Shown: piece after piece, positions 43,610 through 64,000 of the stretch
How positions within the stretch are numbered: the first letter of the stretch is position 1
Layout of the letters: every line of letters starts with the position of its first letter
Virus record (IMG/VR): IMGVR_UViG_3300027734_000045
Coordinates: 1 to 64,000 of that record
Direction: 5' to 3' (one strand)
Length of the DNA stretch: 64,000 nt
Source: a virus
Translations under genes and position numbers: made by a program
The notes under the pieces: model-generated
What the model was told of the DNA's origin: nothing
Database searches by the model: none
What the model saw: only the letters and a program-made list of their open reading frames with translations

Positions 43610-44188
43610 ATGAATGCGATTACAAAACAAAATCACAAGCTTCCAACGACTGTAGCTTTCGTCTTCAAAGAAATCGCCACAACGCGAGAGCTAAGAGACA
43701 ACTACATCTCTGTTCTTAGAGAAAATGAATGGACTTTACAGTCGATTGCAGATTGCTGCGAACTCACTAGGGAGAGAGTCAGACAGCTTGCTTCTCGGAA
43801 ATCAGACCCCGGAGTAGTCTCCGAACTCATTCGCCTTGGGGCTGTGATTCCGACTCCACCGGAGAAACCTAAACGGGAAGTTGCCTTCAAGCCGGAAATA
43901 AAACCGGAGACCCTAGAGAAATTGCTAGAACTTCAGCCGCTTGCGCAACAAGTTCGCTCAAATAGCACGAAGTTCCGGGAAGAAGCTGAAGTCTACACGG
44001 CTCTTTTGTTTGACGCGTATAAAAACCAGGGAGTTTCTCTGTATCGGCTTGCAAAACTTCTCGGAGTTACTCATGGGGCGATAAGATTTAGGCTGGCGAG
44101 ATACGGATACATAAAACCTCAAGGCGGAAGCAGCAAAGTTTACGCTCTCGTAAAATCAGAAAACAGGGTGAAAATCTCAAATGGCTAA
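43610..44188 (+). CDS. two-HTH protein upstream of terminase, small-terminase candidate
   Basis: 192 residues. The first HTH (TLQSIADCCELTRERVRQLA) looks like sigma region 4; the second (GVSLYRLAKLLGVTHGAIRF preceded by LQPLAQQVRSNSTKF) matches the domain in 7535-7996 and 49309-49809. It overlaps the large terminase start by 8 bases, the place of the small terminase subunit. Function is inferred from place and the DNA-binding motifs. Confidence 0.65.
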   Translation: MNAITKQNHKLPTTVAFVFKEIATTRELRDNYISVLRENEWTLQSIADCCELTRERVRQLASRKSDPGVVSELIRLGAVIPTPPEKPKREVAFKPEIKPETLEKLLELQPLAQQVRSNSTKFREEAEVYTALLFDAYKNQGVSLYRLAKLLGVTHGAIRFRLARYGYIKPQGGSSKVYALVKSENRVKISNG

Positions 44189-45578
44189 AAGCATTATGGA
44201 ACAGTTAGCTCTTTTGCCGGAAGCGGAGAGATTAGAGATTCTTGCGGGCATGGACCCTGATACTTTGCTGTGGGATTGGTCGGTATGGGGAAGACCAGAA
44301 CAGCAAGCGCCTCAGGGTGAGTGGTCTATTTGGATGTATCTAGCCGGAAGAGGCGCGGGAAAAACGAGAGCTGCAGCGGAGTGGATTCGTGAAGAAGCAA
44401 AGTACACTACAACTGGGCAGAGAAGATTCGCCCTCGTTGCGAGAACTGCAGCAGACGTTAGAGATGTCATCGTTGAAGGTGAGTCGGGAATCATTTCCGT
44501 TACTCCGCCTTCCGAACGCCCTCTTTACGAGCCTTCGAAACGTCGACTCACTTGGCCAAATGGAAATACGGCAACTTGCTTCACAGCTGACGAACCTGAT
44601 TCACTCCGTGGACCTCAGTTTACTCACGCTTGGGGAGATGAGGTTGCGGCATGGAGGCAAACTCCGGACGCTGCCGGGATGACTGCTTTCGACAACTTGC
44701 GCGTTGGAACTCGTTTGGGCTCAAATCCAAAAATCATGATAACCACTACACCAAAAAGAGTGCCCTTGCTCTATCAGCTTTTAGAAGAAGAGAGAAAGAC
44801 GGGAAGAGTCGTCGTAACTCGTGGGTCGACTTTGGATAACTCAGGGAACTTATCAAGCTCTTACATCGATGCTATCACAGGAGTTTACGCTGGTACGAGA
44901 CTCGCGGCTCAAGAGCTTTACGGTGAAATGTTAGATAACGTTGAAGGCGCTCTGTGGACTGAAGAAATGATCGATAAAGGAAGAGAAACTGTCTTTCCAA
45001 TTGGATCTCCATTGAGAGTAATCGGTGTCGACCCTTCGGTTGCCGAGAACCCTAGAGACGAATGCGGTATCGTTGTCGTTGCTTCAACTGCAGAAAGAGA
45101 TTTATATAAACGACACGCTTGGGTTTTAGAAGACGCAACGATTCTCGGCTCGCCAGAAACTTGGGCGAATAAAGTAGTCGCCATGGCTCGTAAATGGGGA
45201 TGTCCAGTCGTTGCTGAAGTGAATCAGGGAGGCGCATTAGTTAGAAACGCAATTAACGCAATCGACCCTAACATCAAAGTTTTCGAAGTTCACTCAAAGT
45301 ACGGGAAAGCTCTTCGCGCAGAACCGGTGACTCTTGCTTACGAACAGAACAGAGTTCATCACGTAAACTACTTACCCGAACTTGAATCTCAAATGTATTC
45401 TTGGATTCCGGGAGAAGGAAAGTCTCCAGACCGAGTCGATGCTTTAGTTCACGCGCTTACTGCTCTGCTAATTAAACCACCGCAAGGTTTCGTCGGTGGA
45501 AAGATTACCGCAAAGTCAGTTGCTCACAGAAAGTTCGATACGGGAAGAGGCGGCGGAGGAATCTTCAAAGTTCGCTAA
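44181..45578 (+). CDS. terL: terminase large subunit
   Basis: 465 residues. Walker A AGRGAGKTRAAAEW (about 55-68), Walker B HAWGDEVAAW, and C-terminal nuclease motifs VIGVDPSVAENPRDE and RVDALVHALTAL. This is the packaging motor that cuts and translocates phage DNA into the prohead. Length is normal. The next gene on the plus strand in the packaging order, the portal, lies 5 kb away because of the inserted minus-strand block. A terminator follows at once. Confidence 0.95.
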   Translation: MAKSIMEQLALLPEAERLEILAGMDPDTLLWDWSVWGRPEQQAPQGEWSIWMYLAGRGAGKTRAAAEWIREEAKYTTTGQRRFALVARTAADVRDVIVEGESGIISVTPPSERPLYEPSKRRLTWPNGNTATCFTADEPDSLRGPQFTHAWGDEVAAWRQTPDAAGMTAFDNLRVGTRLGSNPKIMITTTPKRVPLLYQLLEEERKTGRVVVTRGSTLDNSGNLSSSYIDAITGVYAGTRLAAQELYGEMLDNVEGALWTEEMIDKGRETVFPIGSPLRVIGVDPSVAENPRDECGIVVVASTAERDLYKRHAWVLEDATILGSPETWANKVVAMARKWGCPVVAEVNQGGALVRNAINAIDPNIKVFEVHSKYGKALRAEPVTLAYEQNRVHHVNYLPELESQMYSWIPGEGKSPDRVDALVHALTALLIKPPQGFVGGKITAKSVAHRKFDTGRGGGGIFKVR

Positions 45579-46179: not shown

Positions 46180-46188
46180 AAAAGAAAG

Positions 46189-46640: not shown

Positions 46641-46825
46641 ATTCCGGCTTGAACTACGGTGAAAGTTCGCACTTCGATGAGAAGTTTTCTACTTTTTCTG
46701 AAGTCTTTCGATTTCAAAAAGTTCTAAGTTTTCTGCGAAAGCAAAAAGCTTGAAGAGAGTAGAGTTGAGATTTCTCTTTTCTTAGATTTCTGAAGTCTTC
46801 AGATTTTTCTTCGTTGAGAGAGTTA
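46641..46825. repeat. low-complexity polypyrimidine spacer
   Basis: Repeats of TTTCTGAAGTCTT(C/T) and related words without an ORF. It begins with attccggcttgaactacggtgaaagtt, which also starts the spacer at 47263. Confidence 0.7.
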
Positions 46826-46830
46826 AAAAG

Positions 46831-46856
46831 AATCGACCGCATTTCTGTGATCGATT
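46831..46856 (-). terminator. terminator of unit 2 (minus strand)
   Basis: Minus strand AATCGATC...GGTCGATT followed by CTTTTT, 16 bases after the stop of the gene at 46872. Confidence 0.75.
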
Positions 46857-46871
46857 TCTTCTCGCTTTCGC

Positions 46872-47144
46872 TTATTCCCAAATGCTCGAGAAGTCAGTTC
46901 TCTCTTTTTTGTTCGTCAAGACGATTTCTTGTCGAGTGATTGGATTTTTAGCAATGATTCCGTACTTGTATTTTGCATCTTCTCCAAAGACTTTGACGTT
47001 TGTTTCGATAACTTTGTACTTTGTTGAGAAGTAGAAGACTGTGTCTCCAACTTTCTTTTCTCCAAGTGAGAACATTGCTCTTGCCAACTTGTTTAATTCT
47101 GGATTGCTGTTGTAAAGTACGTTGTCTTTGATTACTTCGTTCAT
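46872..47144 (-). CDS. unknown protein, 90 residues (insulated unit 2)
   Basis: MNEVIKDNVLYNSNPELNKL, then GEKKVGDTVFYFSTKYKVIE: lysine-rich, beta-strand-rich, no cysteine. AAAGGAAAAGCGA ribosome site. Own promoter and terminator. Unknown. Confidence 0.6.
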   Translation of the reverse strand: MNEVIKDNVLYNSNPELNKLARAMFSLGEKKVGDTVFYFSTKYKVIETNVKVFGEDAKYKYGIIAKNPITRQEIVLTNKKERTDFSSIWE

Positions 47145-47186
47145 TCGCTTTTCCTTTTGTCGTTTATTTATTTTTGGTACATAATC

Positions 47187-47228
47187 ATTATAACATGAAC
47201 TTAGCAAAAATACTGCACATTTAGCAAA
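47187..47228 (-). promoter_or_regulatory. minus-strand promoter module copy (drives 47144)
   Basis: Minus strand: TTTGCTAAATGTGCAGTATT, then TTCATGTTATAATGATT; TATAAT at 47192-47187. TTATAACAAAATGATAAC lies further upstream (about 47258-47240). Confidence 0.82.
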
Positions 47229-47262
47229 GATTTTCTACTTGTTATCATTTTGTTATAATCAC

Positions 47263-48130
47263 TATTCCGGCTTGAACTACGGTGAAAGTTTGCGGTAAAA
47301 GCTCACACTCTCTGAAGTTTCTGAAGTTTCTGAAGTTTCTGAAGTCTTCAGATTTCGCTTTCACTTTTGAGCTCTCTGTCGAAAGCAAAGTTGCGATTTT
47401 GAGTTCTCTGTCGAAAGCTGAGATTTTGTTTAGAGCTCTCAATCGAAAGCTGAGATTCATTTTTCTCTCTCTGTCGATTTCTTAGTTTCGATTTAGATCT
47501 CTTTATCAAAAGTAGAGATTCGATTTCTGAAGTCTTTAGAGTTCTTTAGATTTCTTTCGATTTCTTAGAAGTTTCTAAAGTCTTCAGATTTTCGATTTTG
47601 TTTTTAGATTTCTCTTTCGATTTCTGAAGTCTTTAGATTCTTTAGATTCTTTAGAAGATTTTCTAAGTTTTCTAAAGTTTTCTGAAGTTTCTAAAGTTCT
47701 CTGAAGTTTTTCTTTCGCTACTAAAGTTCTCTGAAGTTTCTAAAGTTCTCTAAAGTCTTTCGATTTCTTAGAAGTTTCTAAAGTCTTTCGATTTCTCTTT
47801 CGATTTCTGAAGTCTTTCGATTTCTGCTTTTCTCTTTTGACTTCTCTTTTGATTTCTGAAGTTTTTAGATTTCTTCAAAGTCTCTGAAGTCTTTAGATTC
47901 GTTTAGTTGATTGCGGTAAATGATTGCGGTGAATTCGAACTCTCTTCAAAGTTTCTGAAGTCTTTCGATTTCTGAAGTCTTCAGATTTTTGATTTTAGTT
48001 TTTCGATTTCTGAAGTCTTCAGATTTCTTTCGCAACTTTAGATTTCTTTAGATTTCTTTCGCAACTTTAGATTTCTTTCGCAACTTTAGATTTCTGTTTT
48101 TCTTTTTCTCTTTCTCTTTAGAGTTAAGAA
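47263..48130. repeat. 870-bp low-complexity spacer of short degenerate repeats
   Basis: Words such as TTTCTGAAGTCTTCAGATTT, GAAGTTTCTGAAG, TTTCGATTTCT and CTCTGTCGAAAGCTGAGATT recur with variations. The plus strand is pyrimidine-biased. There is no frame with a start, ribosome site and plausible composition. It lies outside the promoter-terminator units. Confidence 0.8.
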
Positions 48131-48134
48131 AGAA

Positions 48135-48156
48135 GCGACCGTTTTTCAACGATCGC
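48135..48156 (-). terminator. terminator of unit 1 (minus strand)
   Basis: Minus strand GCGA-CGTT...AACG-TCGC followed by TTCTTTCTT, 25 bases after the stop of the gene at 48181. Confidence 0.75.
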
Positions 48157-48180
48157 AACTTTTGTTGAGTGATTTCTTAC

Positions 48181-48426
48181 TTACACAACGTAAGCAAGAA
48201 CGTATCCACCATTCAATTTCTCTTGAACTTTTTCTTGAGCGATTGAAAGTGCACTTTGGTTTGAGTAAGCGTTTACAACTTTGTTCTGTCTCTGTGATTT
48301 CTCTGCCATTCCCCAAGACATTGAAACTTTATTATCAACAACGATTACTTCATAGATTTTCTTCTTGCCATTTAGTCCACGGTTTCCGTCACTGACCTTT
48401 AGTAGACACCATTTCTTTTCGTTCAT
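48181..48426 (-). CDS. WGR-domain-like protein, paralogue of 28051 (insulated unit 1)
   Basis: 81 residues: KKWCLLKVSDGNRGLNGKKK, IYEVIVVDNKVSMSWGMAEK, and an end NGGYVLAY. It aligns over its full length with the protein at 28051-28296 (K-W-LL..SDG.RG.NGKKK.YE..V.DN....SWGMAEKS). AAAGGAAAAAA ribosome site. Nucleic-acid binding is inferred from the WGR similarity. Confidence 0.65.
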   Translation of the reverse strand: MNEKKWCLLKVSDGNRGLNGKKKIYEVIVVDNKVSMSWGMAEKSQRQNKVVNAYSNQSALSIAQEKVQEKLNGGYVLAYVV

Positions 48427-48474
48427 TTTTTTCCTTTTGTCGTTTTGTCGTTTATTTATTTTTGGTACATAATC

Positions 48475-48515
48475 ATTATACACTATTTTTAGCAAAATAG
48501 CTGCACTTTAGCAAA
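48475..48515 (-). promoter_or_regulatory. minus-strand promoter module copy (drives 48426)
   Basis: Minus strand: TTTGCTAAAGTGCAGC, then AATAGTGTATAATGATT; TATAAT at 48480-48475. Confidence 0.78.
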
Positions 48516-48559
48516 GATTTTTGCTAAGTTATCACTTTGTTATAAAGAGTTATTTTGCG

Positions 48560-49010
48560 GTGATTTGCGGTGATTTCTTGATTTTTCTCGTATTTTTGAA
48601 CAAATGTTCAGGTCGCTAAGATTCATTATAATCAACTGTCTTTTGTTCTTGACTTTGATTTCTCTTTGTCATTTTGTGGAGCAATTCTGGGCGACATGAC
48701 AAAAGGGCACAAAAAGCTACAATGAGCGCAAAGTCTCTTCTTTTCTCAATTTCTCACTTTCTTCGCACTCTCTCACTCTCACTCACTTTCGTCGACTTTC
48801 TCTTCTTTTCTCTCGCTCTCGCTTTCTCTCACTCTCTCACTCTCACTTTCTCTCGCTATTTTTCTCTCGCTCTCGCTCTCGCTCTCTTCTTCTCTCACTT
48901 TGGCTCACACAAAAGCTCACGCAAAAGCGAAAGACTTTTCGACTTCTCGCTCTCTTCTTCTCTCACTCTAAGCGCTTTCATGAGCTTCTTTTTTCTTTAG
49001 AGAGTCTCGG
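48560..49010. repeat. CTCTCA/CTCGCT low-complexity region
   Basis: Long runs of CTCTCA, CTCGCT and CACTTTC words between the minus-strand block and the plus-strand structural genes. No supported gene; the one long frame has only Leu/Ser/Phe repeats. Confidence 0.75.
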
Positions 49011-50533: not shown

Positions 50534-52267
50534 TTGGGTGTATTTAGCCGAGAGCCACAGCCGCTTCGTGCAAGTGGCGCGACAGGCCGCATAGCTCCTC
50601 CGTCTATCCTGTCTACCACCTTTGGCAATGGATACCAAAGTCTTCCGTACTCAGCTCCTCGAGGTCTAACTGCCGCTGCCGCGCAGATAAGACTAAACGA
50701 TAAGGGAGAGGCCGAGCAGTTCAAGGCTCGTCGCGCAACCGCGGTATCCGCCTGGCAAAACGAGGCGTGGGAATACTACGACGCAATCGGTGAAATCAAG
50801 TACGCCTTTAATCTAGTTTCCTCCGTCGTAAGCCGCATTCGTCTATACGTGGCCGTTGTCGAAAACCCGGCCCAGACTCCAGTTGCAGTTAGAAGTGCCG
50901 CCAGCGTTGACGGTCGACTAGCCGGAGCCGCCGAGCGCGCGCTTGACCGTCTGAACTCAGCGTATGGAGGACAGGCAGGTCTTCTCAGAGACGCGGCACT
51001 AAACCTGTCCGTCACTGGAGAGTGCTATCTTGTTCAAATTCCAGAGCGCCTAGGTTCCGGTATCCCTGAGAGCTGGGACATCCGCTCAACCGACGAGCTC
51101 CTAATCGACTCAAGAGGAAACTACGCGATCGCGCCAAGACGCGACCTCACCGTAGCTACCGGAGGCGGAGATAAGAAGGGGATTATCCAGCTGCCGACCA
51201 ACGCATTTGTTGGCAGAATCTGGCGTGCACATCCGCGCTACTCAGAGGAGGCCGACAGTTCTCTACGCGGTCTGCTAGACATGTGTGCCGAACTACTACT
51301 TCTAAACCGCACCTTCCGTGCAACGGCGCGTTCCCGTCTGAACGCTGGTGCGCTCTATCTCCCAGACGGCCTAAGCGTCGCGGCTGGACCAGACCCTAAC
51401 TATCCTTACGATGACCCGGACGGTCTGACCGACGCTCCGACTCCTGAGGAGATGCAGGACGAGTTCGAGGACCAACTTGTTGACGCGATGACCACTCCTA
51501 TTAGAGATGAAGATTCTGCCTCAGCGGTTGTTCCACTTATTATTCGTGGTCCTGCGGAACTTGGCGACAAGATTAAGCAGTTTAAATTTGAACGCTCATT
51601 TGACCCGGCGTTGGCAGAGCGCTCAGACCGCGTTCTTGAGAGAATCCTTCAGGGACTAGACGTTCCAAAGGACGTGGTCACTGGACTTGCCAACGTAAAG
51701 TATTCAAACGCGCTGCAGATTGATGAGGCACTTTACAAGGCACACATCGAACCGATGATGCTGCTTATCGCGGATGCCATTACCGTTGTCTATCTTCGTC
51801 CTTATCTTATTGCAAATGGATTTGACGCGGTTGACGTCAATAGACTGGTTATCTGGTATGACCCGTCTCTAGTCGCAACCCGCAACGACCGCGCGATGGA
51901 CGCGGACGCAGGATTCGACCGCATGGCAGTTTCATTCGAAACATGGAGACGCGCGCACGGATTCTCAGACGCAGACGCTCCAAGTCCAACTGAGCTTGGT
52001 CTACGTCTACTTGTCGAGAAGGGCGCGATTACTCCTGAGCTAAGCGAGGCCCTGCTGAACGCGGTCGCACCTGACATCATGAAGGCTGCCCGTGATGCCT
52101 CACAGGCAACGAGCGTTGCGCCAATTCCAGACATGGTAAACCAGATGCTTAGCGGACAGGCTCCAGCAGCACCAGCAGCTCCAGCAGCAGAGCCAATCGC
52201 GCCAGCAGACGCAGCGCCGCCTCCACCCGAGGAAGCTCCACCAGGATTAGCAGAACCAATAGTATAG
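50534..52267 (+). CDS. portal protein
   Basis: 577 residues from a TTG after GAGGAGTTAACCA. AWQNEAWEYYDAIGEIKYAF and the central LLLLNRTFRATARSRLNAGA and FKFERSFDPALAERSDRVLE...ILQGLDVPKDVVTGL are typical of phage portals. It forms the dodecameric DNA gate at the head vertex. The C-terminus is a proline/alanine-rich tail. Follows small packaging-type genes and precedes the Dps fusion by 14 bases. Confidence 0.88.
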   Translation: MGVFSREPQPLRASGATGRIAPPSILSTTFGNGYQSLPYSAPRGLTAAAAQIRLNDKGEAEQFKARRATAVSAWQNEAWEYYDAIGEIKYAFNLVSSVVSRIRLYVAVVENPAQTPVAVRSAASVDGRLAGAAERALDRLNSAYGGQAGLLRDAALNLSVTGECYLVQIPERLGSGIPESWDIRSTDELLIDSRGNYAIAPRRDLTVATGGGDKKGIIQLPTNAFVGRIWRAHPRYSEEADSSLRGLLDMCAELLLLNRTFRATARSRLNAGALYLPDGLSVAAGPDPNYPYDDPDGLTDAPTPEEMQDEFEDQLVDAMTTPIRDEDSASAVVPLIIRGPAELGDKIKQFKFERSFDPALAERSDRVLERILQGLDVPKDVVTGLANVKYSNALQIDEALYKAHIEPMMLLIADAITVVYLRPYLIANGFDAVDVNRLVIWYDPSLVATRNDRAMDADAGFDRMAVSFETWRRAHGFSDADAPSPTELGLRLLVEKGAITPELSEALLNAVAPDIMKAARDASQATSVAPIPDMVNQMLSGQAPAAPAAPAAEPIAPADAAPPPPEEAPPGLAEPIV

Positions 52268-52281: not shown

Positions 52282-54693
52282 ATGCTTGACATTCTCCCGG
52301 ACGACCCGCTGGGTAGGGAAGAGCTTGCCGACGCGCTAGCCGAGACCTTATCTAACGTAGTTGTCTTTCAATACATGGCTCACGGTTTCCACTGGAACGT
52401 AAAGGGTCCGCACTTTGCTCAGTTCCACGAGTTCTTTGGAGAAATCTACGAGGACGCTCAAGGTTCAGAGGACGACCTAGCCGAAAACATTAGAAGAATC
52501 GGATACGACGCTCCGTCTGCGTTGCCACAGTTCATGGCACTATCAAACGTTCAATACGTTGAGTGTTCAAGTGACCCGCTAGAGATGAGCCAGGTTCTAC
52601 TGGAGGCCAACTCAGTTGTAATCGACTCGCTAAATGGTACGTTCACAATCGCCAACGCGATAAATGAACAAGGAGTTGCAAACCTAATCGCCGAGCGCAT
52701 CGACATGCACAAGAAATGGCAGTGGCAGCTAATCTCTACGCTAGGTCTTGACGAAAAGTCAATGGGAAAATCTAAGGCTGAATCTCCTTTAGAAGTATCG
52801 GACCACGATTACTCGTTGTTCGAAACGGACGTTCAGCCAGAAGAAGTTTTTGTTCCAACAACGGCTGCGGTTGGAAAAATAGTCTCAGAGGAGCAGGACC
52901 TAGCACAGGCTCTTCTTGACATCGCAAATAAGTATGGAAAGTTTAACGAAGACGATACCGGTATCTGGGCTGGGTACACTCCAGCGGCAGAAAACGAAGT
53001 TGCAGCCATTGGCGTCAAGTGCAGCAACTGCGTTCTTTATCGTGGCGGCTCAGAATGTGCAATCATCTCTGCTGAAGTAGAGCCTGAAGGCAAGTGCCGC
53101 TTTGCGGTAATTCCAGATGGCGTAGTTAGTTTAGACGAAAATCCTATAGAGAAGATGTTTTCTAAGCCACCTTACCTAGCTCAGGACGAGCTAAAGCAAA
53201 AGGTAGAAGACCTAGACGACTACGAGGAAGAATACCTAAACATCTCTGATTTGATTCCAACTCAGACTCATCTAGACCCAAGTAAGTTTAAGGACGCTCG
53301 CTCAATCACGAAGCCGGTAATCGTTTACGAAGACGCCGACGGATATAAGTTAGTTGACGGACATCATAGATGCGCTTCTAAGGCCATCGCAGGTGAAACT
53401 AAGATTATGGCAAGGGTCTACAGAGGTTTAGTAGCGGCAGCTTCATTGTTTACCGCGATACCAATAAGTCCTGACGACATAGAGCTTTCAGCCGATGGCC
53501 CTTGCTGGGACGGCTATGAGCAAATCGGCATGAAGATGAAGAACGGCAAGAAGGTTCCTAACTGCGTTCCGATAAACGCCGCCGCGACTGAGTTCGCTGC
53601 AACTGAAGATTCCTGTCCACCTGCCACTAGAGACATCGTTCTAAACGTCACCAACAGACAGAACGCCATCGACAACGTTGGCTACGGACCACTAAACCCA
53701 CTCGAGCCAAACGACGAGTTCTGGCAGGAGAAGGCAGACCGCTGGAAGACAACCCCAGAAGAGTCAAAGAAAAGCATTTGCGGAAACTGTGTATTCTTCG
53801 TGAGAACACCGAGCATGCTTAATTGCATTGAAGGCGGACTTGCCGAGGGTGGCTCAGGAGAACAAAACGCCTGGGACGCAATCGACAAAGCAGAGCTAGG
53901 CTACTGCGAAGCGCTTGACTTCAAGTGCGCTGCGTCTAGAACATGCAACGCGTGGGCAGCTGGTGGACCAATCACCGAGGAAAAGAGCTCTACTGAGACG
54001 TCAGACGACACCGTCAGCTACTCACCTGCCGACGCTCGCAACGCAGTCTACGCGTCTGGTTCTAAGCCTGCGCCAAAGAAGGACCGCATAAAAGGTTCTA
54101 AGAAAAACGCCCCAGGCTCTGCTAAGAACAAGAAAAAGGTAATAACCTTTTCAAAGGAAGTAGAGGCCTCTCTTCGCAAGAAGGTCACAGACCACAACGC
54201 TAAAGCGAAGACCGAGGGTCGTCAGGCAACATTGCCAATGCTAAAGGCCGTTTACCGCCGAGGAGCCGGAGCGTACTCAAGTTCTCATAGACCAAACATC
54301 TCTCGCGCAGCCTGGGCAATGGCAAGAGTAAACGCTTTCCTACACCTGCTCAAGACAGGTAAGCCTGCTAGCGTGAAGTACACCCAAGACAACGATCTAC
54401 TTCCAGCTAAGCATCCAAAAGCTCCAGGCGCGATTACCGCAAGTATTTTTAGCGAGCTTGCCGTTGAGCTTAAGGAAGAAAATGAATACGCGTCTCCAGA
54501 ACATGCTATATTTGCACTAGCAGAGTTCTCGGGAATGGGTTACGAGATTATTCCTGCACTTCGCGCAAGCTGGGCAAGAGCTGTTAAAAACGACGAAACA
54601 CCTTACAAACGAGCAATGAACCTTGCCACAAAGTTGTACAATAGTAATGACGCTGACCTGCTACCAGCAGATAAGAAAGGCACCTTAGAGTGA
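52282..54693 (+). CDS. fusion protein: Dps-like ferritin domain + Cys-rich parts + ParB-like domain + phage C-terminal domain
   Basis: 803 residues. Residues 1-155 are Dps-like: HWNVKGPHFAQFH (two His 12 apart), then EDDLAE with Asp 15 residues after the second His and Glu 4 later, the exact spacing of the E. coli ferroxidase ligands. About 243-275 is CSNCVLYRGG...C...GKCRF. About 317-385 is ParB-like (NISDLIPTQ, VDGHHRCASKAIAG). About 405-566 holds two more Cys-rich parts (GNCVFFVRT, CEALDFKCAASRTC). About 640-710 is AVYRRGAGAYSSSHRP and YTQDNDLLP, common in phage head genes. Likely a virion protein; iron oxidation is inferred from residues only. Confidence 0.8.
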   Translation: MLDILPDDPLGREELADALAETLSNVVVFQYMAHGFHWNVKGPHFAQFHEFFGEIYEDAQGSEDDLAENIRRIGYDAPSALPQFMALSNVQYVECSSDPLEMSQVLLEANSVVIDSLNGTFTIANAINEQGVANLIAERIDMHKKWQWQLISTLGLDEKSMGKSKAESPLEVSDHDYSLFETDVQPEEVFVPTTAAVGKIVSEEQDLAQALLDIANKYGKFNEDDTGIWAGYTPAAENEVAAIGVKCSNCVLYRGGSECAIISAEVEPEGKCRFAVIPDGVVSLDENPIEKMFSKPPYLAQDELKQKVEDLDDYEEEYLNISDLIPTQTHLDPSKFKDARSITKPVIVYEDADGYKLVDGHHRCASKAIAGETKIMARVYRGLVAAASLFTAIPISPDDIELSADGPCWDGYEQIGMKMKNGKKVPNCVPINAAATEFAATEDSCPPATRDIVLNVTNRQNAIDNVGYGPLNPLEPNDEFWQEKADRWKTTPEESKKSICGNCVFFVRTPSMLNCIEGGLAEGGSGEQNAWDAIDKAELGYCEALDFKCAASRTCNAWAAGGPITEEKSSTETSDDTVSYSPADARNAVYASGSKPAPKKDRIKGSKKNAPGSAKNKKKVITFSKEVEASLRKKVTDHNAKAKTEGRQATLPMLKAVYRRGAGAYSSSHRPNISRAAWAMARVNAFLHLLKTGKPASVKYTQDNDLLPAKHPKAPGAITASIFSELAVELKEENEYASPEHAIFALAEFSGMGYEIIPALRASWARAVKNDETPYKRAMNLATKLYNSNDADLLPADKKGTLE

Positions 54694-57600
54694 GCATCCA
54701 AAACATAGTCCTACCTCTGTCTCTTCGACTTCGCATTGCCGAAATCGTATCCGAAAAGAACAACTCGGTACTTGCGGCTCGTCAGGTTCCGTTGACCGCT
54801 GCCTACGTGGTTGCCAGACGTGCAATCGCCCTGACGGCAAGCCTCGACCCTTCAGTTGAAGGCTACGTGGCAATCAAGGCAGTCACCGCCTTTACCACGC
54901 TTGCGATCGACGGTAGGACGTCCCTTACCGCAAGCAGCGGGTTAGACATCTACCGCGACGTGCTTCCAATTGGTCACCCTGAGTTTTCAAACGCGGCCGT
55001 CTTGCCAATTAAGACGCTTAGAGCTGCCCGCGCAGAATGGCTAGCCGCAGACCCACGAATCGCCGACGAGTACCGTCCGCTAGTTGCCTCTGCGTTTGGA
55101 GCGACTCCTGGCTCGCTTGAACAGCGCCACGCCCGTGCGCGTTTAGACCGCGTCGACTCTCACAGCGTGCCGCTCGACATCGTACTTGCTCCACTAATTG
55201 CCGCTGCTAGAAAAATTGACATCGCAGCTCTAAAGGCTCGTGTTGCTGACCAGCTCCGCGACCCACACACTGGACAGTGGATTGAGGAAGGCCACTTTGC
55301 GATGTTTGACCTAAAGGGTCCTAGCGGAAAGATTCGCAAGGTGTTCGGTCAACTTGTTGGTGGTAACGACATGCTCGGCTACGGTGAGATTCACGTGACC
55401 GATGACCCAGACCTCGGCACCGGTGTAGTCAAGGTAAACAAGGCTAACATTACAGCTGTAGGCGGTATGCTTACAGACGAAAACCTAGAAAAAGCAGGCG
55501 TTGACCCACAGGGCAAGCAGAGAGTTTACCTAAACACTGATGCACAGAGTCTAAACGACCTAGCTAAGACCATGGACGTCGCGCCTAGTGACTGGACCTG
55601 GGATGCAAACGAAGACAACTCAAACGGCAGCAAGGGAGCGTTTATCTCTGCCGACGGTTTCAAGGCCGTTCCTGTTGGCGAAGGCGGACAGAACGCCAAG
55701 ACCTTCGACATCTTTGACGCAGATGACAAGCCGATTGAAACTCTGCAGGGTGAAGGTTGGGGAAACATCCAGGGCGGTCTACAAAAGATTCGCCAGGACA
55801 TGGCAAAGAAGGTGGACGCAGGTAAGCCTGCAACCGAGAGCACCGGTACCGCGCAGATGATTCCTGCTGGAAAGCTCCAGGCTGGAGACAAGGTTGACGT
55901 GGCAGGCAAAGAGAACACCGTTGTCTCAGTTAGCAAGCCGTATAAATACAAGGTAAAGCCTACTGACCTAAAGCAGACCAAGTCTGGCTATAGAAACGTG
56001 GTAGACGTCACCCTTGAAGACGAGAACGGCGAGCGCGTCACTAAGCGCTGGAACCCTGCGACTGAAATCCAGGCTATTCGTCCAGAAGGCAAGGAAGAAG
56101 CTCCAGCAGTCGAAGGAGAAGTAGAACACGGTCTATCCGATACTTGGACCAGCGTAATGAACGGCGCGTTAGGCAAGCGCGAGCAGCAGCTGCGCGACCT
56201 TGAAAAGTCATTCCCGCCAGACGCCGCGGCAACCGCTGAAATGAACGAGTTAGCAGCGGCTAGAGCAAGAATCAAATCAGGAGTGGTCACCGAGGCAGAC
56301 CTTGAAAAGGTCAAAGAACTTCTCAGTCAGGAGGACGGCGCCGATAGCCTGTTTACAAAGCCAGGTTCAACGATATCCCAAATCGACAAGCTTCTAAAAT
56401 ACAAGTTTGGTAAAGACGGTGCTCCTAGGAGCATGAGCCAAGAGTCCGATGACGCCGGTAAAACTCCTATCGAACCTGGCCAGAAGGTTAAGGGAGGCGT
56501 TTCTGACCTTCTCGACGACTACGATAAAGAATTACAGAAGAGCGGCTTCGACGTAGGAATGCGCGACGGCACCTGGACATCAGCAGATGGCCGTTTGGAA
56601 CTCTCTTACGAGGATGACGCATGGAACGTCAAGTTCGATGGAGAACTAGCGGCTAAGGTCACCATATGGGAAGAAGACGAGAACGGTAAGTATTACGAAC
56701 CCGACGACGACAGCATCTATGAGTCAATTTTCGACAGTCTTTATGGCGAACTAACAAAGGACTTTACCAAGGAAGACTACGTCGACGACATGGTCAGCAG
56801 CGGCCAAAGATCGATCCAAGAAATAAAGGACCTTGGAAAACTTCCTGACGAATCTGATGAAGACTTTGGTGCAAGAATCAAGAAACTAGAAGACGGCCTA
56901 TCATCTTTAGAAAGCTACATACGCTCAGATGACTTTAAGTACCTTCCAGATTCAATGAGAACAGAAGCCTATGGCACCTACACTCCGGGTACCAAAGCCT
57001 CTCCTATGGAACAAAAGCTAAACTCGCTATTAGAGTCTGCAAGACACGCTGGTTATAAGTCTCGTGAACTGTATTTGAAAGATCTCTTCGCTAAGAAGAA
57101 GGCCGAAATAGACGAAGCTAGTAAAGCTACAGGACCTTCACCTGATGCTGCCGCTGAAGGCAAGGTGAAGGCCAAGAACAAGGCCGAGGCAAAAGGCAAG
57201 ATGGCCGAGCCTGCCACGGACGCGCAAAAAAACTACGTAAAGGCAATGCTGAAGAACCCAGCAGTTCCAGACGATGTTCGCTCTAGAATTCAGGCTGACC
57301 TCGATGAGCAAGGCGACGCGATAAACAAGAACGACATCGGTCTTCACATCGCTGAGCTAAAGAACTACCCGAGCAAGAGTCTGCCGACAGACAAGATGTA
57401 TAACTCGATACAGCGTGAGCTCTACGCCCGCGGAGCCTCTCCTGAAGAAGTCGATAAGATTCTTGCTGACCTGCCTAACATGGACAAGAAGCAGGCCTCA
57501 GACCTAATCGGTTCGCTGAAGGAGAAACCAGACCTTGCCGGCGAAGAGGCAACTAAAAACGGATTTGAAGAAACCACCAATGAGTCTGATAAGTACGATG

Positions 57601-60600
57601 GTCAGCGCCGCTGGACGAAGGTTGAAGCAGGTAAGCGAACTACAGTTCTGCTAAACGGTGATGGCTGGAGAGTTAATCACCAAAGCAACGTAGACCCAGC
57701 AACTGGAACCTGGAACGACTCGCAAATGCAGTCGATAGACCACGACTCAGAAAAGAGTTCCAGCGCCGACGACGTGTTTAAGAACGCGGCTGACACCCAC
57801 GAAACTCTCGGAGCCAAGGAAGAGCTTCCAATCGACGAGAGTGCTGTTGCCGCTGACGTAGCCGCAGAAGTTAAGGAGCTTAGCGACAAGCAAAAAGAGC
57901 CTGCCACCGATAAGCAGCGCGCGTTTGTTGATAGTCTTCTTGCCAACCCAAAGGTTCCAGCCGACGTAAAGAGTGACATCGAGTCTAAACTTGCCGCAAA
58001 GCCAGACATGAACAAGGCAGAGATTGGCGAGATTATTGGTGCCCTAAAGAAGCTCCCTGGCTCAGACGCACCTACCAGTAAGATGCTCAACTCAGTAAAG
58101 CGCGAGCTCATCGCACGTGGCGTTCCAGTCAACGAGGCGAATGAGACTAGAGCTAACCTAGACGGCATGAGCAAGAGCGAGGTCTCAGACCTAATCAGCA
58201 AGCTAAAGAGTAAGGACGATGCCGCAGGAGCTCAAGCAGCGGCTAACGGCTTTGTTGAGGCCACCACTCCAGAGGACCAGGCAGGCGGAGTTCGCAGGTT
58301 CAACCTACTTGGAAGTGACGATGAGCTTCTAGCTGCACTTACGCTAGACGGCGAAGGCTTCACCGTGAACCGCAAGGATGAGAACGGCGAGGACGACGAG
58401 TTGTTCCTTGGTCGCAACCTAGGTAGCTTTGAGAGAATCGCAAACGCGGCTAAGGCTGCGCAGGACCTAAAGAACACAGACGTCACTAAGACTCCTGGAT
58501 TCGACAGTGAGTCAGACAGAGAAAAGAAGATTGCTACGGCTACGTACAACAGACCTGGAGACAGTGGCACCTGGATGGAGGGCAAGACTCCAGATGGACA
58601 GCGCGGTTGGTCGTACTACGATGCCGATGGAAATGTTACTGAGGTAACTGAAAATCCCGATGGCTCATTTACTAGACGCAGCAGCGACGCCCCTGAGCCT
58701 GTCACCTTTGATAGCGTAGACGAGGCGTTCTCGCTTGACAGTAAGCCAAGCGACACTGGCAGTAAGATGTCAGACTTCCAGGACGACTTTGACGACATAA
58801 TCGAGGCGGTTCAAGGACTAGACTTGTCAGGAGACGATGAGTCAAGCGACGACACTCCTGCGTCAGACCTAAAGAACTACGTGTCTAATCAAGTTACGCA
58901 AGCGGAAGAGCTCATCAAGAAAGGTGACCTTCTCTCCGCGCAGGCCTCGCTGGCCCTTGCCGCGGCTGACGCAAACGATTCAGACGTCCCTGGAGCAGAT
59001 GAGCTAGGAGACGCGCTGAACAACGCAGCTAAGTCGATAGCTGACATTAGAGAAGCGCAAAAGGCACTTGGCCAAGGTAGTGGCGGCGGAGATGAGCCTC
59101 CAAGCACTAACGCTCCTTCGTCTGCAGGCGACGACGACTTTGAAAACAACGTACGTGACGTCTCTGGCGACATCATGAGCATAGGCGAGGAACTAGACAA
59201 GAACCTCAAGAGCTCTGCGATAAACGCCATAGAAGAGCGCGAGGTTGCAGACGGTAGAACTATTCTAAAGAACGCAGAAGACTCAATGGGTCAGGCGCAG
59301 GAGGCACTTGCCGCTGGAGACACTGAGACTGCAAGAAAGCTTATCGACCAGGCAGCTAGTCAACTAGCCGACGCGTCAGACGTCTTCGAAAACATCTTGG
59401 ACCAGTCCGATGAAGGCAAGGCGGTAAGAAAGCTTGGAAAGAGTGCCGGTGACCTCGCTCTTAAGATAAGAGAAACTCTTCTTGATGGACAACCGCGAGG
59501 CGGAGGATCTGCCGGTGACAGAATCTTTGGCAAGGCTGGAATCTCCGATGACAGAATCATGCAGGCCATGGAGGACGTTGACGACTGGGTGGCATCCGAG
59601 AAAGGCAACGAGGTTTCTGGATGGGATAACAAGGTAGGCAACCTAGACCAGATGATTTCTAGTTTCAACGACGAGCCAGAGGCGCGCATGCAGAAGACCG
59701 CAGAGGCTCTGTACGAGCTAGGTCGTGAACTTGAAGACAATGGCTACAAGGATTCTGCGAACACCTTGTTCGACATGTCCAAGGCACTTTCAGACGAGTT
59801 CTACGGTGACTCTGACGAAGACGAAGACGAGACCTCCACTTCAGGCACTGCAGAGTACGCGCCGGCGACAGACTGGACTCCTGCTGAGAACGGGTTTAAC
59901 TTTACTGGCGGAGATGAGCCGGGAGAGGTCTCAGCAGCCTTAGCTAAAAAGAAGAAAAAGGTAGAAGACCTTATCGCAGATGGCGACTACGGAGGCGCGC
60001 TAGACGAGCTCTTCGACGGAGCGGCGAGCATTCCAATGAGCCGCGCCATGGAAGACGACCTCTCTGGATCGTACGACGGCATTCAAGATGGAGACGTCTT
60101 CTACCAAAACGCCGATACCATAGTCTATAAAACCAAGGATGGTCGCTGGAGAGTCTACTCTAAAGACGAGACGGACGGGTTTATCGACACCGGAGAGCCT
60201 GCCACTGACCAACTAGCCGACGAGCTTCTTAAGGAGATGATGGCGCCAAAGAGTGATTGGACACAGGCAAGATTCTATGACCCTCGCCTAAATGACTTGT
60301 TCCACGCCAACAACGCGCCTGGCCCGAGCGGAAACCCAGCTAACCACACGAGTACTCCTAACTACAAGATTAGCTTCGACGGTCTTCGCATGCCAGACGA
60401 CTGGGCAGGTGACCTTGGTCTTCCTGAAAAGGGCGAGGAAGAAGAACCTTACTCTGACGGTGAACTAATCGACACCTGGCTAAAAAATAACGGTCTAGAT
60501 GAGCTTGGCGTAAAGTGGGACCCAAGCTCAACAGAGACTACGTTTGGCGGAGCAAACGTCAACTTTGAGATTCCTGAAGGTGCCAAGGACAAGTTTGGCG

Positions 60601-63600
60601 AGGCCTACTATGGAGAAGGTGCCACCTGGAAGGACCTCGAAGACGACGAGATTCCAGAGGCCATCGAAGGCGGAGAACCCTCTTCATCAATCTATTCAGA
60701 CACCGAGAAAGCTGCGATGAATCGCAATATCGGCGACAGCGTAGTAGTAGTTGGTAAGAAGGGCAAGGAGAAGCCTGGAAAGATTATCGGCGTCGTACCT
60801 AGTTCTATCGGACAGTACATAGTAGAGCACGATGATGGAAGCACCTCTCTTCCTTGGTACTTTGACCTCAAGCCAGAAGGCGCAGAAACTCCTTCCGCTG
60901 ACAAAAAGCCTACAGAGGCCAGATTCAACGGCAAGATTGGCGACAGCGTAGTAGTAGTTGGTAAGAAGGGCAAGGAGAAGCCTGGAAAGATTATCGGCTA
61001 CGTACCTGGCTCAATCGGGCAGTACATCGTAGAACACGATGACGGAAGCTCCTCTCTTCCTTGGTACTTCGACATGAAGGCAGACGGCTTAGAAACTCCT
61101 TCCGCAGATGGAGAAGGTACTACAACCTCTCCAGCAGAAACTGAGAAACCTAAAAAGGGTAACCAGATTGGCGAACGTATCGTCGTGATTGGTAAGAAGG
61201 GCAAGGAGAAGCCTGGAAAGATTATCGGCTACGTACCTGGCTCAATCGGGCAGTACATCGTAGAACACGACGATGGAACAACATCTCTTCCTTGGTCCTA
61301 CGAAACTAAACCTGAAGGTGGAGAAACTAACCTAGGCTCAAGCGGCAGAAGCTCCGAGCAAGTGGCTAGAGACGCAGAAAACGCTAAGAAGACTGCGAAC
61401 GAGCTTGCCGCGGAGTGGAACAGCAAACCTTTCCCTATCGCAGACCCAGACAGTCTTGCCAGTGAAGAGTCTCTCACTAAGATGAGAAACATACTGCTAG
61501 ACGGCGCAACCAACTCTGATTACTTTGGTCCAGCGTTGAAGGCAATAGACGACCCAAATCTGTCAGGCACCGAGAAACTACAAAGAATCGCTGACGCGCT
61601 AACTGAACGTGGAGTTGGCTCTGATGGAAAAGGCGTCGACCTCCCTAATGCAAACCCTGGACTTCCTCTAAACGGAGACTACTCTGGAAGAGAAAAGGCC
61701 TTGTGGGCTAAGTCAAACATAACAAGGGCGCTAAATCTAAATGGAATTTTCTCTACCAAGGAAAAAGAAGCAGGAAAAGATAAGCTAAGTCCTAGGCTAC
61801 AAAAAATCGTTGACGCAGAGCTAAAGAAGCGCAGTGAAGGTGACGAGGGCAACGAAGGTACAGGTGGTGTCGACCCAAAAGTACCAAGCCCTAGTAAGCC
61901 AGGGGGAGGTGGCGCAGAGGCTAGTACCAGCGAAAACTCCTCGCCGGAGCTCACGTCAAAGGTAGAAGGAACAAACGCGCAGCTCACAAAGCGCTTTGCC
62001 TCTCGCGACGAACGAGACGCCTGGCTAAAAAGCATTCCTAAAGGAGCAGAGGCCGGAATTGCAATATCTATATCCAGCCCGACTGACTTTGATTTTTACA
62101 ACAAAAAGCGTGAACACTACGAAGTAAAAATCGACTTCGACACGCGCACCGAGGGGCTAGGCGTGCCTAAGGGGTTAGGCGCAGGTAGAAAGAAGGCTAT
62201 CGAGTGGGCCGAAAAGGAAGGATTCGATCTCTCTGAGGGAGAGCACAGCAGCGAATCCCTGGTTCCAAAGGTTAACGTTGACGACAAGATTACAATGTCC
62301 AACATTAGATTTGATGACAAGATCGACCAAGCCGAAAAGATTGAGGCTAAACTAAAGCCTGGAGAAGAAAAGGACTCAGCGAGACTTAGAATTAAGTTGG
62401 CTAGAGACAAGATTTCTAAGGCAAGAAAGGCTCGCCTAGACGGAGACCTCGAGGAAAGCGAAAAGCTAACTGAGGAGGCCTCGGCCGAGCTAACCGCGAT
62501 GGCTGAGGACATAGAAAAATACATGGTTAGCCCAAAAAGCCAAGACGCTAAGTATGGATTAAAGAACAAAGAGATACGAGAAGACGCAGCAAAGCTAGCC
62601 AAAGCAGTCGAAGCAGTTACGGCAAAAAGTAGAATAGCCTTTGCTGAAGAAAAAGAGGCTAAGTCGACTGAGTCTTCTGCATCTAGCTCAAGTACCATAA
62701 CAGGCGACAAGTACAAGAAACTTATCGACAACGCGTACGAAAAGTACGACCCGGGAGTAGCTCAGCACAGCTGGGACACAAAGGGAATTGGCGAGTCAAT
62801 CATGTCTCACCTTACCGGGATAGCTGACGACATCAAGTCAGGCAAGGAACTAGACGCCAAGGACGCCGCAAAGAAGATGCGTCAGCTTGCCTCGATGTAC
62901 AACGAACTTGCTGACGCAGCAACTGGCAGTGAGGGAGAAGATGGAGCTGAGTGGAGCACAGACGACTCCTCGATACAGGACCTTATCCAAGGTGCCCAAG
63001 AACTTGAGAAGCAGGCTGACCTGCTTGACCCTAAGGCGGTCGATAGCCCAAAAGCTGAAGCGCCTAGCGAACCTGACAGCGGTGAAACACAGGAGCCTAT
63101 TTCAGTAGACAGTGTACTTACAGATGGAAGTTTAGCCAGCAAAATTACAAAGAACGCAGACATGGACGCAGCTGAGCTCGAGCAGCTGAGCACCAGAATA
63201 GCTAAAGAGTTAGAGAACAATCCTCAACTAGCCGCGGTGCTAAAGCTTAGTGGAGATAGTCCTATTCTTAGCGCCCTTGAAGAACTAAACTCCTCTAATG
63301 GAGAGTCTTCACAAGGTTTAGAAGGCGACCTCAACGTTCTAAGAGACACCCTAGACTCTACAATAGAAGACAGCGAACTAATAGACTCGCTAACTAGGCT
63401 GCTAAAGAGCGTAGAAAAGAAAAACAACACCAAGAACCTAACTGGTTTTAAAAAGATTAGCGAGGCCAAGGGCTCTAACCCAGGTGGAATCTACGAGGAC
63501 CCTAAGACAGGCGAGCGCTTCTACGTAAAGTTCCCTAAGTCAACACTTCATGGCGAAAACGAGGCACTTGCCTCAGCCATCTACGAAGAGCTAGGTGTAC

Positions 63601-64000
63601 GCTCAGTCAAGGTCGAGCAGGGAGAACTTGATGGCAAGCCTGTCACCTACACCAGGATGATAGACGGCGCTAAGAGTGACCTAAAGGATAAGCTATCAGA
63701 CAAGTTCTACATGAAGCAGCTGCAGGAAGGCTTTGCGGTTGACGCTCTTCTTGCCAACTGGGACGTGGCCGGCCTAGAGTACGACAACGTGGTATCTGAC
63801 GCAGAGGGACTTCCTGTTCGCGTTGACCCAGGAGGCGCGCTTCTGTTCCGCGCTCAGGGAACTCCAAAGACAGACGACCAGTTCAATGAAAACGTACCCG
63901 AGCTGGACACCTTTACCGACAAGAACAGCTCGCGTCCTGCCGCCAAGATATTTAGCTCGATGACTGCAAGTGAAAAGTTGGACTCCGCGGTAAAGCTTAG
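54690..64000 (+). CDS. giant multi-domain structural protein (partial, 3' end outside window)
   Basis: A GTG overlapping the previous stop (GTGA) opens a frame that I checked at many points to the window edge: at least 3,103 codons. Recognised parts: an N-terminal head-protein-like segment with RDPHTGQWIEEGHFAMFDLK (about 185-205); two copies of a PATD.Q..FV..LL helical domain (about 841 and 1071); acidic helical repeats (about 1400-1700); three KOW/SH3-like repeats (VVVGKKGKEKPGKIIG, about 2013, 2083, 2159); and a HipA-like kinase domain at the end (YVKFPKSTLHGENEALAS, LLANWDVAGLEYDNVV, RVDPGG). Head-associated or injected protein is inferred. Confidence 0.85.
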   Translation, partial: MSIQNIVLPLSLRLRIAEIVSEKNNSVLAARQVPLTAAYVVARRAIALTASLDPSVEGYVAIKAVTAFTTLAIDGRTSLTASSGLDIYRDVLPIGHPEFSNAAVLPIKTLRAARAEWLAADPRIADEYRPLVASAFGATPGSLEQRHARARLDRVDSHSVPLDIVLAPLIAAARKIDIAALKARVADQLRDPHTGQWIEEGHFAMFDLKGPSGKIRKVFGQLVGGNDMLGYGEIHVTDDPDLGTGVVKVNKANITAVGGMLTDENLEKAGVDPQGKQRVYLNTDAQSLNDLAKTMDVAPSDWTWDANEDNSNGSKGAFISADGFKAVPVGEGGQNAKTFDIFDADDKPIETLQGEGWGNIQGGLQKIRQDMAKKVDAGKPATESTGTAQMIPAGKLQAGDKVDVAGKENTVVSVSKPYKYKVKPTDLKQTKSGYRNVVDVTLEDENGERVTKRWNPATEIQAIRPEGKEEAPAVEGEVEHGLSDTWTSVMNGALGKREQQLRDLEKSFPPDAAATAEMNELAAARARIKSGVVTEADLEKVKELLSQEDGADSLFTKPGSTISQIDKLLKYKFGKDGAPRSMSQESDDAGKTPIEPGQKVKGGVSDLLDDYDKELQKSGFDVGMRDGTWTSADGRLELSYEDDAWNVKFDGELAAKVTIWEEDENGKYYEPDDDSIYESIFDSLYGELTKDFTKEDYVDDMVSSGQRSIQEIKDLGKLPDESDEDFGARIKKLEDGLSSLESYIRSDDFKYLPDSMRTEAYGTYTPGTKASPMEQKLNSLLESARHAGYKSRELYLKDLFAKKKAEIDEASKATGPSPDAAAEGKVKAKNKAEAKGKMAEPATDAQKNYVKAMLKNPAVPDDVRSRIQADLDEQGDAINKNDIGLHIAELKNYPSKSLPTDKMYNSIQRELYARGASPEEVDKILADLPNMDKKQASDLIGSLKEKPDLAGEEATKNGFEETTNESDKYDGQRRWTKVEAGKRTTVLLNGDGWRVNHQSNVDPATGTWNDSQMQSIDHDSEKSSSADDVFKNAADTHETLGAKEELPIDESAVAADVAAEVKELSDKQKEPATDKQRAFVDSLLANPKVPADVKSDIESKLAAKPDMNKAEIGEIIGALKKLPGSDAPTSKMLNSVKRELIARGVPVNEANETRANLDGMSKSEVSDLISKLKSKDDAAGAQAAANGFVEATTPEDQAGGVRRFNLLGSDDELLAALTLDGEGFTVNRKDENGEDDELFLGRNLGSFERIANAAKAAQDLKNTDVTKTPGFDSESDREKKIATATYNRPGDSGTWMEGKTPDGQRGWSYYDADGNVTEVTENPDGSFTRRSSDAPEPVTFDSVDEAFSLDSKPSDTGSKMSDFQDDFDDIIEAVQGLDLSGDDESSDDTPASDLKNYVSNQVTQAEELIKKGDLLSAQASLALAAADANDSDVPGADELGDALNNAAKSIADIREAQKALGQGSGGGDEPPSTNAPSSAGDDDFENNVRDVSGDIMSIGEELDKNLKSSAINAIEEREVADGRTILKNAEDSMGQAQEALAAGDTETARKLIDQAASQLADASDVFENILDQSDEGKAVRKLGKSAGDLALKIRETLLDGQPRGGGSAGDRIFGKAGISDDRIMQAMEDVDDWVASEKGNEVSGWDNKVGNLDQMISSFNDEPEARMQKTAEALYELGRELEDNGYKDSANTLFDMSKALSDEFYGDSDEDEDETSTSGTAEYAPATDWTPAENGFNFTGGDEPGEVSAALAKKKKKVEDLIADGDYGGALDELFDGAASIPMSRAMEDDLSGSYDGIQDGDVFYQNADTIVYKTKDGRWRVYSKDETDGFIDTGEPATDQLADELLKEMMAPKSDWTQARFYDPRLNDLFHANNAPGPSGNPANHTSTPNYKISFDGLRMPDDWAGDLGLPEKGEEEEPYSDGELIDTWLKNNGLDELGVKWDPSSTETTFGGANVNFEIPEGAKDKFGEAYYGEGATWKDLEDDEIPEAIEGGEPSSSIYSDTEKAAMNRNIGDSVVVVGKKGKEKPGKIIGVVPSSIGQYIVEHDDGSTSLPWYFDLKPEGAETPSADKKPTEARFNGKIGDSVVVVGKKGKEKPGKIIGYVPGSIGQYIVEHDDGSSSLPWYFDMKADGLETPSADGEGTTTSPAETEKPKKGNQIGERIVVIGKKGKEKPGKIIGYVPGSIGQYIVEHDDGTTSLPWSYETKPEGGETNLGSSGRSSEQVARDAENAKKTANELAAEWNSKPFPIADPDSLASEESLTKMRNILLDGATNSDYFGPALKAIDDPNLSGTEKLQRIADALTERGVGSDGKGVDLPNANPGLPLNGDYSGREKALWAKSNITRALNLNGIFSTKEKEAGKDKLSPRLQKIVDAELKKRSEGDEGNEGTGGVDPKVPSPSKPGGGGAEASTSENSSPELTSKVEGTNAQLTKRFASRDERDAWLKSIPKGAEAGIAISISSPTDFDFYNKKREHYEVKIDFDTRTEGLGVPKGLGAGRKKAIEWAEKEGFDLSEGEHSSESLVPKVNVDDKITMSNIRFDDKIDQAEKIEAKLKPGEEKDSARLRIKLARDKISKARKARLDGDLEESEKLTEEASAELTAMAEDIEKYMVSPKSQDAKYGLKNKEIREDAAKLAKAVEAVTAKSRIAFAEEKEAKSTESSASSSSTITGDKYKKLIDNAYEKYDPGVAQHSWDTKGIGESIMSHLTGIADDIKSGKELDAKDAAKKMRQLASMYNELADAATGSEGEDGAEWSTDDSSIQDLIQGAQELEKQADLLDPKAVDSPKAEAPSEPDSGETQEPISVDSVLTDGSLASKITKNADMDAAELEQLSTRIAKELENNPQLAAVLKLSGDSPILSALEELNSSNGESSQGLEGDLNVLRDTLDSTIEDSELIDSLTRLLKSVEKKNNTKNLTGFKKISEAKGSNPGGIYEDPKTGERFYVKFPKSTLHGENEALASAIYEELGVRSVKVEQGELDGKPVTYTRMIDGAKSDLKDKLSDKFYMKQLQEGFAVDALLANWDVAGLEYDNVVSDAEGLPVRVDPGGALLFRAQGTPKTDDQFNENVPELDTFTDKNSSRPAAKIFSSMTASEKLDSAVKL
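60729..61310 (+). repeat. three in-frame repeats of a KOW/SH3-like module
   Basis: GGTAAGAAGGGCAAGGAGAA and the bases around it occur three times (starts about 60729, 60938 and 61166), nearly identical in DNA. The encoded unit reads GDSVVVVGKKGKEKPGKIIG, then SIGQYIVEHDDG and SLPW. Near-identity suggests recent duplication. Confidence 0.88.

Follow-up and report, generated by a model that had tools for sequence, protein, structure and literature searches.

What does a phage do with a protein of several thousand residues whose gene lies beside that of the portal? The question is raised by the DNA analysed here, a stretch of 64,000 bases (the window) that forms the first part of a 121,061-base virus record (IMG/VR record IMGVR_UViG_3300027734_000045) and that ends inside a giant coding sequence, of which 54690..64000 falls in the window. 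We consider it probable, at roughly 0.68, that the giant protein belongs to a new family of 'polyvalent' effectors, packaged in the head and having a cargo region that can be swapped. This freshwater bacterial virus would load the protein into its head and inject it, and the protein would then seize control of the host cell. From the results below, in which NT denotes the N-terminal module of the protein, KIN a kinase-like domain and CT a C-terminal domain resembling ADP-ribosyltransferases (ARTs), we infer packaging, injection, processing, enzymatic activity and targets.

One giant frame between portal and capsid protease

The original prediction described a frame without a stop over 9.3 kb that leaves the window, and this was borne out from 54690 to the window end. 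Extension into the rest of the record placed the stop at 67865, so that the gene (54690..67865, + strand) has 4,391 codons with no stop inside. Stops or frameshifts that split the frame were looked for in the virus's own record and none was found. The gene starts with GTG at 54690, in a 4-nt overlap (gtga) with the stop of the preceding gene for an 803-residue protein, and the chance of a frame this long from base composition alone is about 10^-91. Another IMG/VR contig, 3300010885_058768, holds a 100% identical copy of each piece of the giant gene searched and is possibly not an independent sample. A DNA-level search against phages gave no match. The nearest annotated relative is DSL-LC01, a phage assembled from a lake metagenome (PMC10611076), which has a 3,289-residue frame in the matching position. 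The giant frame is no assembly accident, and relatives keep one giant open reading frame (ORF) between the portal and the capsid protease.

Such proteins had been called rare, which they are not: scans of viral contigs found at least 575 stretches that encode KIN and 131 that encode NT, 80 of each being kept, together with four loci for CT. Closed ORFs with a length of 1,000 residues or more and any of these domains number 67 once redundancy is removed: 29 carry NT-KIN-CT, 22 NT, eight KIN, five NT-KIN, two KIN-CT and one CT; a different domain order was found in 0/67. All three domains occur together in 55 closed frames (a redundant count), which have 31 different lengths, from 1,935 to 4,396 residues stop to stop. 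On the upstream side, giants preceded by 3.5 kb or more of sequence were considered, which left out 52 with too little sequence, 32 duplicates and 11 whose 5' end is open; a portal gene was found within 4.5 kb upstream in 57/67, and in at least three of the remaining ten it overlaps the giant's start or lies farther away. Downstream, a protease or capsid gene lies within 5.5 kb in 27/36.

Nine hand-chosen pairs of relatives, two of them near synonymous saturation, gave ratios of non-synonymous to synonymous substitution (dN/dS) of 0.12-0.28 for the whole frame and 0.09-0.29 outside the three domains, in 9/9 pairs; the window's protein is in none of them, its relatives being too distant. Judged by these ratios, the frame is under purifying selection in the relatives, also outside the domains. 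The 3,170-residue protein of locus L145 combines NT with exonuclease, UvrD helicase and DnaG primase domains; L168 has NT with an exonuclease and UvrD, and in L022 a NUDIX domain lies between KIN and CT. CT is in an overlapping second frame in L046 and L082. L083 has a single frame where L082 has CT in an overlapping separate one, by a frameshift in one copy or by assembly.

Domains of the giant protein

The following features were assigned within the giant protein (all on the + strand; window positions unless the record is named).

54717..55181, +: NT helical domain, residues 10-164, which is related to the DUF5824 region in the preceding 803-residue protein
55206..55298, +: tag in a flexible linker, residues 173-203, with RDPHTGQW as a divergent form of the family motif QRRDRxGRFAEMGG
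55284..55466, +: SH3/Tudor-like barrel, residues 199-259, a small fold found in many proteins (best Z 7.2)
57186..57578, +: helical repeat copy 1, residues 833-963, phrog_636-like
57876..58265, +: helical repeat copy 2, residues 1063-1192
60729..60884, +: KOW/SH3-like unit 1, starting at residue 2014
60936..61091, +: KOW/SH3-like unit 2, starting at residue 2083
61167..61322, +: KOW/SH3-like unit 3, starting at residue 2160
63408..64000 and past the window end, +: KIN, probable HipA/PI3K-like kinase domain, residues about 2907-3159
Record 66372-67862, outside the window, +: CT, ART-like domain, residues 3895-4391

The counterparts in DSL-LC01 are 32% identical over NT (residues 10-269), 48% over KIN (2920-3142) and 30% over CT (about 3906-4388). 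A sequence search of solved structures gave nothing credible with any of the three.

KIN has a G-loop GSNPGG at residue 2928, followed by K2947, E2958, D3025, N3033 and D3046, in the overall pattern GSNPGG, K, E, DAxLxNWD, DN, RVDPGG. The K, E, D, N and D, to which we assign the catalytic and metal-binding roles of HipA/PI3K-like kinases, are invariant in 55/55 viral and 59/59 bacterial-genome sequences (114/114 aligned). A G-loop, Lys, Glu, a D...N catalytic loop and a metal-binding Asp, as expected of such kinases, can all be recognised in the KIN sequence, which probably adopts a kinase fold of the HipA/PI3K type and is likely an active enzyme. By sequence it is outside the curated HipA families. 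The window protein has no match to Pfam HipA_C (PF07804) or HipA_2 (PF20613), and in the KIN relatives the HipA matches are sub-threshold (best E 0.0014-0.0021, in 4-5/59; 19.7 bits against a cut-off of 30.5 in L202). At E up to 0.1, HipA_C and HipA_2 are matched by 2/55 and 1/55 relatives, and a PI3/PI4-kinase Pfam match is found in one among 15 giants. When profiles were compared by hhalign, the bacterial KIN profile aligned to HipA proteins over 41 columns of the K-to-E region, at probability 71 and E 3.7e-5; with the viral KIN profile the probability was only 7, and with CT and NT controls less than 1. KIN also occurs in Verrucomicrobia genomes. Kinases, possibly of the same family, have been reported in Verrucomicrobia phages (PMC5512222). 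One relative, L059, has two kinase domains in a single giant ORF, at residues 302-535 and 2694-2972.

The original prediction spoke of a HipA-like kinase end; the kinase was retained and the end was not, since about 1,230 residues follow KIN and the last domain, CT, folds like DarT. The AlphaFold model of CT has a mean predicted local distance difference test score (pLDDT) of 85 and a predicted template modelling score of 0.87. For its last ~190 residues, the top seven structural matches are all DarT (Z 8.3-9.4), that to DarT1 having Z 9.4 and a root-mean-square deviation of 3.3 over 148 residues. Next in rank comes yeast tRNA 2'-phosphotransferase (KptA/Tpt1; Z 6.6), and unrelated matches begin at Z 5.5 on the other half of the model, for which no fold match is claimed. 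DarT is also first in Foldseek, with a weaker E of 0.012. The conserved residues of CT, putative NAD-binding and catalytic positions, are an H, an R and a Y in 21/21 sequences and a late Glu in 20/21. CT therefore resembles the DarT DNA ADP-ribosyltransferases in fold and differs from them in sequence, being 11-13% identical and without a match to Pfam DarT (PF14487) in the window protein. According to the model, it is a DarT/KptA-like ART fold outside the DarT family by sequence. DarT was sought in 12 bacterial genomes and found in none.

The structure model of NT comprises helices (residues 9-164), a disordered linker, where pLDDT at model residues 169-185 is under 50, and an SH3/Tudor barrel, from which no function is claimed, the Z of 7.2 having many ties. 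The helices are related to the DUF5824 region of the 803-residue protein (E 1.4e-10). The best-conserved motif of NT sits in the linker and reads roughly NSSAARSxRAKxQRRDRxGRFAEMGG, in short RDxxG[RK][FW]; we refer to it as the tag. Tag and barrel are also present, without the helices, in adjacent head-operon proteins. In the cultured Microbacterium phages Zooman and Pumpernickel and Arthrobacter phages Mimi and Atuin, the tag is the extreme N-terminus of giants that follow the portal (gp70, 1,764 residues; gp82, 2,235; gp77, 2,709; and gp71, 3,113, respectively), the last two of which are annotated as 'DNA helicase'. It is confined to proteins between the portal and capsid genes, both in Mimi (2/1,419 ORFs at E <1) and in the window's phage together with most of DSL-LC01 (four proteins among 1,723 ORFs, one counted twice in two overlapping loci). 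In two sets of relatives (L026/L029/L159-161; L140), the helical part has an ORF to itself, which stops just 5' of the tag, and this gene split suggests that it can be a separate chain.

Between NT and KIN, the predicted duplication of helical domains was confirmed, as residues 833-963 and 1063-1192 align with a score of 279 against at most 60 in 200 shuffles. The triplicated KOW-like repeats were likewise found, the pairs sharing 45, 40 and 39 of 52 residues. Of the long acidic repeats that had been proposed, the acidic stretches are present (20-24% Asp plus Glu at residues 601-800 and across 1201-2000), and strong repeats are not; self-comparison shows acidic linkers. Pfam and PHROG scans of the whole giant protein returned almost nothing, with Dna2_Rift and YajC below cut-off, and no RNA polymerase family, as expected of an N4-type virion RNA polymerase, was matched in either collection. 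The zincin motif HExxH, sought as a regular expression, occurs in 0/15 giants.

Proposed head packaging and its alternatives

The strongest argument that the giant is head cargo comes from bacterial genomes, since one kinase-ART pair rides MuF in some phages and the NT/tag module elsewhere. MuF is a structural part of phage heads that forms fusions with effectors (PMC5512222). KIN was found in 70 bacterial-genome ORFs of at least 400 residues, 16 of which have a MuF-like domain, nine the ART half of CT and eight both; thus 8/9 proteins with KIN and CT carry MuF, not NT, in the order MuF-KIN-ART, and Pfam confirms MuF in two of the KIN proteins. A head-borne N-terminal domain with C-terminal effectors would be common to MuF-effector fusions, or MuF polymorphic toxins, and the giant. 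In the window protein, no MuF-like domain was matched by profile or by Pfam, and the NT/tag module stands in its place; the MuF-like profile is found in 1/118 viral-locus KIN ORFs (L055). Other arrangements exist: KIN directly follows the portal in the Gordonia phages GodonK and Mareelih, it is in one protein with a different ART family in Jeremy and Mecenats66, and in Mareelih a different ART family is in the next-but-one gene. Inspection by eye had suggested a canonical ART ahead of KIN in DSL-LC01; it had no Pfam match and is not claimed. The giant had been suggested to be packed in the head, processed or injected; for packing, gene order, the shared N-terminal tag and the MuF-KIN-ART relatives point in that direction.

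If so, NT with its helices, flexible tag and SH3 barrel would address the giant to the assembling head beside the portal, and its helical part might be cut off at the flexible linker. As infection begins, KIN would phosphorylate host molecules and the DarT/KptA-like CT would ADP-ribosylate them. The 2,640 residues before KIN and the 750 after it may be a fast-changing space for cargo and linkers, which in relatives contains exonuclease, helicase, primase or NUDIX domains. A broader proposal, which we advance tentatively and rate somewhat below even odds, is that a modular address for loading into the head (RDxxG[RK][FW] plus SH3 barrel) is common to large actinophages and marks several giants encoded between portal and capsid. 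These would preload host-modifying enzymes (kinase and DarT-like ART) and a replication start kit (exonuclease-helicase-primase, as in L145), the window's protein being one loadout, and the helical domain that precedes the tag would serve as a chaperone or scaffold part until the protease encoded nearby clips it off.

Several points weigh against packaging as we envisage it. Location in the head operon does not prove it, and the homologues are known from genes alone. NT has no known function, the tag copy in the window's own giant is divergent, and KIN and CT are below every curated family cut-off, with no solved relative by sequence. An A[LIV]xA motif in the linker was considered as a capsid-protease site and was not proved, the capsid junction not being singled out: a matrix built from the giants' linkers ranked the internal site EALVA[AS]GG first in 5/9 capsid proteins and the junction first in 2/9, and its top score was equalled by shuffles in 2 to 105 of 200 runs.

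The giant may instead be mainly structural, as a head core, scaffold or portal-proximal plug on which KIN and CT are relics or regulatory decorations. The position of its gene between portal and protease/capsid would suit such a role, as would the helical NT with its linker and the long acidic linker-like stretches, which resemble scaffold; the capsid protein, too, is acidic over a long N-terminal region. This reading seems unlikely to us, because the putative catalytic residues of kinase and ART are kept without exception or nearly so, the cargo is exchanged for helicase, primase, exonuclease or NUDIX domains, and the wide spread of lengths would be odd for a scaffold that determines size. 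Folds like those of DarT and HipA are usual in intracellular toxins, which is compatible, as is a late-operon position taken alone, with a late, unpackaged enzyme that modifies head proteins or arrests the host during assembly in the producing cell. That the kinase and ART are joined to a head structural domain in nearly all bacterial-genome proteins that have both, and that the giant shares its tag with neighbouring head-operon proteins, makes this quite improbable. The split relatives, with CT or the helical part in an ORF of its own, could be taken as a sign that the long frame is an artefact of assembly or annotation, or a polyprotein cut into independent, non-cooperating proteins. Against this stand the many closed three-domain frames of differing length, the purifying selection along the frame in relatives and the resemblance of L082 to a frameshifted copy of the L083 type, and we regard it as very improbable.

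The giant can be set against several known systems. Polyvalent proteins of phages and conjugative elements have been described as very large and multidomain, and their packaging and injection have been proposed (Iyer et al. 2017, PMC5512222). The giant is like them in that it joins at least two disparate domains (kinase-like, ART-like, SH3/KOW and helical repeats; there ART, NUDIX, helicase or ParB-type) and in that its gene lies beside packaging and virion genes, there of the portal/terminase type. It is unlike them in its fixed NT-KIN-CT frame with a HipA-like kinase: in the text of that paper 'hipa' has 0 occurrences and the kinase is of a Ser/Thr/Tyr type without the C-terminal part, and the tag/SH3 head module does not appear in its passages on polyvalent proteins. 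Head-packaged ARTs of the T4 Alt type are also encoded with head genes and are thought to act immediately on entry (PMC9503650), whereas the giant's ART is DarT/KptA-like, not of the Alt/VIP2 type, and lies inside a 4,391-residue protein with a kinase. In virions of the Microbacterium phage Burro, a ~250 kDa band was ascribed to the portal-adjacent gp27 of more than 4,400 residues, or to a processed part of it, the 'specific role' of which 'is not known' (PMC7302621). The giants of Burro and of cluster EK resemble ours in size and portal adjacency but are encoded upstream of the portal, and ours downstream; homology to Burro gp27 or Akoni gp31 was rejected (profiles E >=0.08), which leaves an analogy only. 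The polyvalent concept is thus already known, and what is new is the fixed-skeleton family, the HipA-like kinase, the DarT-like end and the shared tag. No description of the family was found in the open-access full text searched, most subscription papers being outside that scope.

Genomic surroundings and significance

The following genes were assigned around the giant.

44181..45578, +: terminase large subunit
50534..52267, +: portal protein, phrog_776
52282..54693, +: 803-residue protein with a ferritin/Dps-like domain, a ParB-like stretch and a DUF5824-like C-terminus, overlapping the giant gene by 4 nt
Record 68544-72572 (L002 14545-18573): 1,342-residue protein, prohead-protease-like at its C-terminus
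Record 73213-75288: capsid protein, whose N-terminal region is long and acidic and ends in AITAGADIPGYTAG

Downstream of the giant gene come a 220-residue protein, the 1,342-residue protein and then the capsid protein. In relatives, the three parts of the 803-residue protein are often separate small genes between portal and giant. The 1,342-residue protein has two copies of the stretch DxNRGNAExLRRYWxxGKGAxKIRWGT (phrog_6439). The capsid protein has an insertion of ~90 residues that is not present in DSL-LC01, and ITAGADIPGYTAG is found at the likely junction in 7/9 capsid proteins looked at. Elsewhere in the window the phage encodes its own transfer-messenger RNA (9088-9435; tag AESRSAFALAA), followed by tRNA-Trp (9630-9701). 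An AT-rich island at 45600-49000 (GC 0.35 at 46-48 kb) has many imperfect repeats, and a leader of ~70-156 nt, in 3-4 copies (45.9, 46.5, 47.1 and 48.4 kb), precedes small minus-strand ORFs with a similar start sequence.

Two WhiB genes encoded by the phage, together with the paper on DSL-LC01 (PMC10611076), indicate an actinobacterial host. A search of 84,980 bacterial and archaeal genomes with the NT pattern gave 50 pattern matches with no relative among them, and the host is therefore not named by that route.

Giant phage genes of unexplained purpose are a standing puzzle, and one of them can now be placed in a widespread family whose skeleton is fixed and whose cargo can be swapped. Two likely enzymes can be named for it, the kinase-like KIN and the ART-like CT. 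The same N-terminal tag occurs in cultured, genome-sequenced phages of laboratory Arthrobacter and Microbacterium strains, so that routine proteomics of virions could test packaging and processing. Should the tag prove a true loading address, it would offer a portable means to put proteins into phage heads.
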